The notes beneath the pieces are model-generated. The model searched no databases. It was not told the origin of the DNA and saw only the letters and a program-made list of their open reading frames with translations. The translations under genes and the position numbers were made by a program. A DNA stretch of 64,000 nucleotides, from positions 62,001-126,000 of the forward strand of contig CALVAP010000013.1 in NCBI GenBank assembly GCA_944325625.1, read 5' to 3'. Below, piece after piece: positions 41,875 to 58,532 of the stretch (position 1 is the first letter of the stretch; every line of letters starts with the position of its first letter). The DNA comes from Candidatus Gastranaerophilales bacterium. GTDB taxonomy: Bacteria > Cyanobacteriota > Vampirovibrionia > Gastranaerophilales > Gastranaerophilaceae.

Positions 41875-42519
41875 TTACCTCGTTGTTGGAATTGCTGAAC
41901 CGCCTAATATTGCATTTTCTACCGCAAAACCTTCATCATCATTACCTGTTGAAACTTTACCGTCATATGAAATTCTTATTCTAAACTGATCTCTATCAGT
42001 TGCAGCTCTTGCCTCATCATCGTCAGAACATCCGGCATTTGGGCCTTTATCTCCGTTTACATCAACGCATATCGTTATTGTATCGGGTGTTATACTTTTT
42101 CCGTCTTCATCAGTAAACTCTTGATTGAGCCCTGCAACTAACGTTCCGTTTGCCAGTTTGAAATCGTAATTATCTCCACTTATATTTGTGTTACCATCTC
42201 TTTCTTCATCACAGCTGATATCGCCCAACGTATTTAGCCCATTAGCTACTTCTGTACAAAAATACTCTTGTGGATCAGTTATACCTGTTTCTGTCGTAAT
42301 CTCTGCTTTGAACATGTTTTCACCGTCTGGAAACTTTGTAGAATCATTTGTCAACGAGCTTATTATCTCAGATATTGAATAAAATGCTTTTTTATACATC
42401 AATGCATTTTCATCCGGCGAGGCATCCATAAGATTTGTTATCATCATTGTTGCTACAATCCCGATTATTAGCAACGTAATCATCATTTCCGCTAAAGTAA
42501 ATGCAACATTTTTCTTCAT
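41875..42519 (-). CDS. type IV pilin-like (pseudopilin) protein
   Basis: 214 residues. The leader MKKNVA is cleaved before FTLAEMMITLLIIGIVATMM. The stem is followed by DENALMYKKAFYSISEIISS, closely resembling DETTLKYRKAFFAIEQGVRT of its neighbour, and by the shared block VDVNGDKGPNAGC, RDQFRIRISYDGKV. This is a paralogue of the neighbour, by duplication. The ATG at 42519 has GAGGAG upstream; the longer frame overlaps the zincin gene and is not used. Confidence 0.86.
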   Translation of the reverse strand: MKKNVAFTLAEMMITLLIIGIVATMMITNLMDASPDENALMYKKAFYSISEIISSLTNDSTKFPDGENMFKAEITTETGITDPQEYFCTEVANGLNTLGDISCDEERDGNTNISGDNYDFKLANGTLVAGLNQEFTDEDGKSITPDTITICVDVNGDKGPNAGCSDDDEARAATDRDQFRIRISYDGKVSTGNDDEGFAVENAILGGSAIPTTR

Positions 42520-57663: not shown

Positions 57664-57692
57664 TTGCAATTTATTCCATAATTTAGTAAAAT
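57664..57692 (+). promoter_or_regulatory. promoter for the poly-C prepilin
   Basis: TTGCAA (57664-57669), 17-base spacer and TAAAAT (57687-57692). The leader reaches AGGAGG (57720-57725) and ATG at 57736. Confidence 0.65.
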
Positions 57693-57735
57693 CATATATG
57701 TTGAATATGTACATGATTTTAGGAGGCAATATTTT

Positions 57736-58532
57736 ATGAATTTTAACAGCTATATTGTTAAAAATGTCGAAATCGCACAAACTGTGCCGCTAAGCTGCCC
57801 CCCCCCCCCCAGAAGTTAGCTTCTAATAAGGGTTTTAGGCTTTTTAGACGTCACACTAGGCGTGCTTTCACCTTGGCTGAAACTCTTATCACCTTAACCA
57901 TTATCGGCGTCATAGCTGCTATGACTATCCCCACACTTGTTTCTAAGTATCAAAAACATTCTTATGTTACTGGACTAAAAAAAGCTTATTCCAGTCTTTC
58001 TAACGCTATGTCACTTGCGATGCACGATGATGAGGTGTTGGAGTATGATAACGGGGGAGGCATTGTTTGGCATAAGAGCACTGATAATATTATAAACAAA
58101 TACATGAATGTTGTTAAAACGTGTGACTACCCCAACCTCGGAGATTGTGTTGAGGTGGATGATAATGGATCCTCAATACAAGGTTACACTGCTACAATTA
58201 ATGTAACTGCTGATGGCATGACTTGGAGCACTACTTATGGTTTAAATGTTGATATTAACGGCAAAAAAGGTCCTAATGAGTGGGGTAGGGATATATTTGG
58301 TTTTGAGATAGCAGAATATAACCAAAACGGGGTAGCCCAAGGCACTGTTATACCATATGGCTCAAAATTGTATGCTAAATACTACAATCATGATACCAAC
58401 TACTGGAACGATGACCCGAGTTCACCTCGCTGTACCACTGAGATTGTTAATCAACACGGAAAAAGTATCGGCCAGAACAATGCAACATATTGCACAGGAC
58501 GTGTGTTAGAAGAAGGCGCGATGAATTATTAG
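57736..58532 (+). CDS. prepilin-like protein, out of frame at a poly-C tract (candidate phase-variable)
   Basis: AGGAGG precedes the ATG at 57736. The leader reads MNFNSYIVKNVEIAQTVPLSC, then 13 C residues (57798-57810), and stops at 57817 in this assembly. From the tract onward a second frame (+2) reads KLASNKGFRLFRRHTRRAF-TLAETLITLTIIGVIAAM, a normal prepilin leader and stem, and continues to 58532. With 14 or 11 C the ATG joins this frame and gives a prepilin of about 265 residues. The head has VDINGKKGPNEWGRDIFGFEI, like the pseudopilins at 40-42 kb. As read here the gene is off; a homopolymer sequencing error must be considered. Confidence 0.6.
57798..57810 (+). repeat. 13-base poly-C tract inside a prepilin gene
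   Basis: Thirteen C residues in a row, very unusual in this AT-rich sequence. It sits between an SD-ATG-leader frame and the prepilin frame. Confidence 0.95.

Follow-up and report, generated by a model that had tools for sequence, protein, structure and literature searches.

How can a pilin-like gene be expressed when a run of cytosines separates its start codon from its reading frame? The question arises at one locus of the window, by which we mean the whole 64,000-nucleotide stretch of DNA that was analysed. There, a run of 13 Cs (C13; 57798-57810, forward strand), placed 62 nt past an ATG at 57736, separates a leader with AGGAGG and ATG from a pilin-like frame. At this length, the ATG frame reads MNFNSYIVKNVEIAQTVPLSCPPPPRS and ends at a stop codon at 57817-57819, exactly as the preliminary description had it in placing the prepilin gene out of frame. 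The pilin frame runs to 58529, is followed by its stop codon at 58530-58532 and is open in the 5' direction across the tract as far as a TAA at 57759. Upstream of the cleavage site it contains no ATG, GTG or TTG, the sole CTG being at 57795, and an alternative start downstream of the tract was rejected, as the pilin frame offers none before the cleavage site. The frames are joined at tract lengths of 8, 11, 14 and 17, and the early statement that 14 or 11 Cs would join them was thus right. C13 is the only run of C or G longer than 6 in the window, and its chance expectation in 64 kb of this composition is ~1.5e-5. The features of the locus are the following.

57664..57692, forward strand: possible sigma-70 promoter TTGCAA-17-TAAAAT, a weak consensus match (9/12)
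57721..57726, forward strand: Shine-Dalgarno sequence AGGAGG, identical among paralogs
57736..57797, forward strand: leader coding segment MNFNSYIVKNVEIAQTVPLS... in the ATG frame, with 13 copies in the genome and codon-position bias
57798..57810, forward strand: C13 tract, the proposed switch, in frame solely at 8, 11, 14 and 17
57736..57819, forward strand: short open reading frame read at C13, 27 codons and then TAG (from frame reading)
57811..57866, forward strand: remainder of the prepilin leader, QKLASNKGFRLFRRHTRRA, in the pilin frame (from frame reading)
57867..58529, forward strand: mature pilin-like protein of 221 aa with an FTLAETLITL stem and a C-terminal body that varies among paralogs (from PF07963, TIGR02532 and an 11-paralog alignment)

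The stretch between the second promoter hexamer and the ribosome-binding site is conserved across the 13 paralogous leaders.

The downstream frame matched PF07963 (E 2.5e-5) and TIGR02532, both above the curated cut-offs. It carries the features of a class III signal, with G/A at -1, F at +1, E at +5 and a hydrophobic stem (A^FTLAETLITLTIIGVIAAM). The prepilin leader and stem had been assigned to the other frame from the start, and this stands with one correction: A-FTLAE is the type IV prepilin site, which puts the first residue of the mature protein at F57867. The nearest solved chain was a Geobacter geopilin, and the predicted structure consists of a long first helix, as expected, at residues 3-51 followed by strands, at a mean pLDDT of only 45, too poor for a fold search. 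The family matches and the signal identify the product as a type IV pilin-like protein, which would be displayed on the surface. A second pilin-like gene in the window, at 42501 on the reverse strand, has an ordinary short leader without a tract (MKKNVA^FTLAEMMITL).

The preliminary description had treated a single gene, and here it fell short, as the family is genome-wide and C and G runs are interchangeable within it. The window genome (1.70 Mb in 17 contigs) contains 14 runs of C or G of at least 10 nucleotides, against ~0.1 expected from composition. Thirteen of them, two being G runs, sit directly upstream of a prepilin motif, each in a different paralog, and reverse-pattern controls gave no hits in this genome and nearly none elsewhere. 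The fourteenth (L014:2890; G000:C4:178889) has no pilin nearby, and the frames around it look broken. A search with the pilin protein gave 37 matches in the genome, including 11 full-length relatives at 66-100% identity, the gene itself among them; 13 copies of the leader were found. Paralogs with the common leader carry C11, C12 or C13, and C9 also occurs among the paralogs. Fourteen tract genes were read (the 13 and L028, which has C9), and in every one the SD-linked start lies in another frame than the pilin, an outcome with a probability of 0.003 if each had a chance of 1/3 to be in frame, and the offset is +1 in some and -1 in others. One of these genes (L139) additionally carries an internal ATG in the pilin frame, without further support. 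Two same-leader copies have no tract and are in frame (L140, MQFDSYIVQNVEIAQTIPLNC...RRA^FTLAE; L141, MNFDSYIVQNVEIAQTVPLNC...KRA^FTLAE). These copies have lost the tract and display the form of the joined prepilin and, because they are in frame without it, they identify the fused prepilin as a real product. Since none of the tract copies in the window genome matches the frame of its SD-linked start, the ON states proposed there were extrapolated from relatives.

The sequences flanking the tract bear the marks of coding DNA. Among the leader copies, differences in the ATG frame amount to 5-6% at codon positions 1-2 and to 21% at position 3, a ~4-fold contrast, and downstream of the tract the pilin frame likewise varies most at position 3, less sharply so. 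The test is strongest for the window genome; G023, from a second genus, showed little or no such contrast. These substitution patterns show protein-level constraint on the leader and coding sequence to either side of the tract. Across the 11 aligned paralogs, identity is 89-98% over the first 50 residues and drops to 34-54% in parts of the body.

The arrangement recurs among relatives. Of the 288 family genomes scanned, 36 have a C run of at least 9 located 30-60 nt before an FxxAE motif and 69 have a G run located 55-85 nt before it, with reversed-pattern controls near zero. Tract length at related loci is 9-14 nt in nearly all cases. The five genomes searched for pilins gave 50-101 matches each, and in G023 a G/C run of at least 10 stood upstream of 46 of the 53 listed pilins. 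In the 12 species of genus g7, 866 runs are of exactly 10 (38-169 per species) and 58 of exactly 11, these counts covering all runs, with pilin adjacency checked for part of them. One-step length variants that are in frame exist among the relatives: siblings with one leader in G023 carry G10 (off) and G11 (on), and siblings in G068 carry C9 (off) and C10 (on). Because C and G runs are interchangeable, what is conserved is the run in the DNA, as opposed to a stretch of prolines. A functional proline stretch was rejected, as G runs serve equally and the lengths disregard the frame.

A leader pattern of g7 gave a hit in IMG/VR on a contig from IMG genome 2523533517, listed in PMC4914512 under the name Zag_1, one of the gut melainabacteria of Soo et al. 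2014. Its gene has C10 in the same out-of-frame phase, as counted by hand. The leader pattern of the window genome itself was absent from IMG/VR. The family placement shared with g7, together with the motif, suggests that the window genome belongs to the order Gastranaerophilales; a search of the genome for 16S rRNA gave no hit, and this assignment therefore depends on the connection to Zag_1. Some loci are irregular. In Zag_1 and G068 (L256:8700-9200 and L183), an insert lies within a tract-bearing prepilin leader and is flanked by a doubled FTLAE. At three loci of G154 (L239, L242 and L244), ~30 codons separate the G10 tract from the cleavage site, which is unusually long before a class III site. 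In G001, G195, G118, G137 and G068, many tracts lie at most 100-300 nt from contig ends, where assemblies were broken by either the repeated leaders or length heterogeneity, and one tract in G075 contains Ns. Runs of 31-52 Cs at contig ends in G139 and G121 (L080, L089 and L185) are probably sequencing artefacts.

To the tracts of at least 9 we added loci sampled by leader and by pilin, since a count from the tracts alone is biased. In this set, drawn from about 40 genomes, only 19 of 184 tract loci (10%) were in frame, in comparison with 33% by chance (binomial P 3e-13), and 15 of 120 were so after collapsing to distinct architectures (P 1.5e-7); the related loci are statistically non-independent. 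Pilins without a tract had an in-frame ATG in about 50 of 57 cases from five sampled genomes. Two genomes, G001 and G011, are exceptions with more in-frame than out-of-frame loci, both being small samples. In genera g7 and g22, length 10 was in frame at 3 of 84 loci and length 11 at 20 of 31, the latter giving the frame at that length and not its frequency, as most length-11 loci were chosen for being 11. At 11 loci the spacing outside the tract is such that a run of 10 would be in frame, yet 8 of them have a run of 11, which returns them to OFF (a count that includes loci picked as 11). This length compensation is the best sign that the out-of-frame state is itself selected.

We consider it fairly probable, at roughly 0.7, that C13 acts as a phase-variation switch at the level of translation, set in the coding leader of a type IV pilin-like gene whose resident state is OFF. 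Slippage of the tract during DNA replication would change its length by one or more bases. With 11 or 14 Cs, leader and pilin would form one prepilin, which prepilin peptidase would cut right before F57867; with 12 or 13 Cs, translation would terminate after ~27-29 codons. The members of the family in this genome have the leader in common while their bodies have diverged, and each possesses a start and a tract of its own; with nearly every copy resting OFF by one base, few would be ON in a cell. The outcome would be a large, sparsely expressed surface repertoire. The switching would presumably be reversible, with selection for rare ON, and surface display may bring its benefit through escape from host immunity or phage.

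Several features of phase-variable genes are present at these loci: a long homopolymer within the 5' coding region (C13, 62 nt after the ATG), a one-base change that toggles between full-length and truncated product (the sibling pairs in G023 and G068) and a tract length that is polymorphic among copies, with 10 and 11 in relatives. The on/off pilin-like surface protein proposed at the outset remains the best-supported reading in its length dependence, given the differing tract lengths in same-leader paralogs, the one-step frame flips and the coding sequence on both sides; what it missed is the resident state, which is almost always OFF and not a mixture of ON and OFF. Some observations count against phase variation, among them the lack of any in-frame tract copy in the window genome. 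The OFF offset in g7 is nearly always in one direction, and this, together with the uniform length, is tidier than in classical hypermutable tracts.

That tidiness bears on the alternative that survives best, programmed recoding, in which the DNA stays out of frame and slippage of RNA polymerase or a -1 ribosomal shift on C10/G10 yields some full-length prepilin in every cell. The g7 tract is exactly 10 at nearly all loci, with a constant offset over many C or G architectures, and the outside phase is 1 in 45 of the 48 length-10 architectures of g7 and g22. A run of ~10 nt also equals the length of the RNA-DNA hybrid, which is in its favour. However, a constant tract with a constant direction of shift is found approximately in g7 and not in the window genome, where offsets of +1 and -1 both occur; loci with the other outside phase are out of frame as well, at 11; and in-frame one-step length variants exist. 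A strictly programmed -1 shift is suggested by g7 but was rejected, the window genome and the outside-phase 2 loci needing the opposite direction. A conserved recoding stem-loop was also sought, and no conserved RNA structure was found beside the tract (mean z -0.15 downstream), which counts against recoding, although simple polymerase slippage needs no stimulatory structure. Bacterial transcriptional slippage is known mostly at A/T runs, again to the disadvantage of recoding. The analysis in PMC1088944 concerned A and T runs. On balance, we regard recoding as unlikely, and we are similarly doubtful that C10 and G10 serve as RNA-level slippage sites, with dozens to >150 pilin genes per genome expressed at a low stochastic level and the DNA variants a side effect. 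Siblings one step apart (G10/G11, C9/C10, C12/C13) change frame to match, in keeping with replication slippage and rare ON. Slippage could operate on both DNA and RNA.

That the true tracts are in frame and were miscounted by the assemblies is very improbable. In its favour, errors are common in long homopolymers, certain tracts sit at the ends of contigs or include Ns, and the longest runs in G139 and G121 are probably artefacts of this kind. The same frame rule nevertheless holds in >40 independent genomes, and C10 is out of frame in the Zag_1 contig too, so the assembly error once named as the observation that would refute the switch is unlikely in general. Moreover, tract length differs between paralogs of one assembly, and a general miscount would not give 11 where 10 is in frame. 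Compression of homopolymers in nanopore reads is disfavoured by the Zag_1 contig and by the siblings differing in length.

We think it just as hard to believe in a silent-copy store of the pilE/pilS kind, in which out-of-frame copies donate to a few in-frame copies without a tract and the tract acts as a recombination or locking device. Among the 11 diverged relatives there are indeed two in-frame copies that lack a tract and agree in leader and stem, but every tract copy has kept its own start and SD, and the leaders remain under coding constraint. In other genera, moreover, the leaders of the many tract genes are unrelated to one another, and no locus stands out as the one site of expression. 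Decayed pseudogenes with long C runs by coincidence would explain genes that are out of frame but can practically be dismissed, the bodies being open at full length, coding constraint being evident and the tracts being restricted, across dozens of genomes, to the 5' ends of pilin genes.

For the preferred reading of a phase-variable pilin family, G-tract slippage in the pilus genes of Bifidobacterium is the closest precedent (PMC9187656). The sortase-dependent pili of Bifidobacterium breve have an ON/OFF switch based on replication slippage, and a productive length of the G-tract is enriched in vivo (PMC9187656). As at the window locus, the tract is intragenic, consisting of ~10-12 Gs in a gut commensal whose pilus locus carries it in the first gene, the annotated length is out of frame, and a one-base change gives an in-frame gene (PMC9187656). 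B. breve has one or two such loci per genome, for sortase pili (PMC9187656), whereas the present family has ~14 to >150 tracts per genome, both C and G, in type IV pilin-like genes of a different phylum. Poly-C/G phase variation in Neisseria and Campylobacter (e.g. PMC5320596, PMC6097035) is alike in its 5' coding homopolymer, in the length setting the frame and in the many loci, but those loci have varied functions and mixed ON/OFF states, whereas here nearly all belong to one family and are OFF. The inactivating homopolymeric tracts of Orsi et al. 2010 are poly-A/T (PMC2831843), in contrast to the C/G runs of one family in AT-rich genomes. Neisseria pilE/pilS shares the multigene pilin repertoire with a constant N-terminus and variable body but works by gene conversion into one expression locus, whereas each copy here has its own start and tract. 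Our literature search, which did not extend to subscription papers and preprints, found no work joining Gastranaerophilales with phase variation and none linking the lineage to tract switching of pilins; the sole paper on Melainabacteria and phase variation concerns flagellin diversity generally.

The counted genomes of this uncultured gut lineage, which would belong to non-photosynthetic Cyanobacteria, contain dozens to >150 C/G-tract switches each, and where read these fall almost entirely in one surface protein family. This is unusually many for a single family, in a comparison with published phase-variation censuses that was not systematic. The default-OFF rule and the length compensation suggest that selection acts on how rarely each pilin is expressed.
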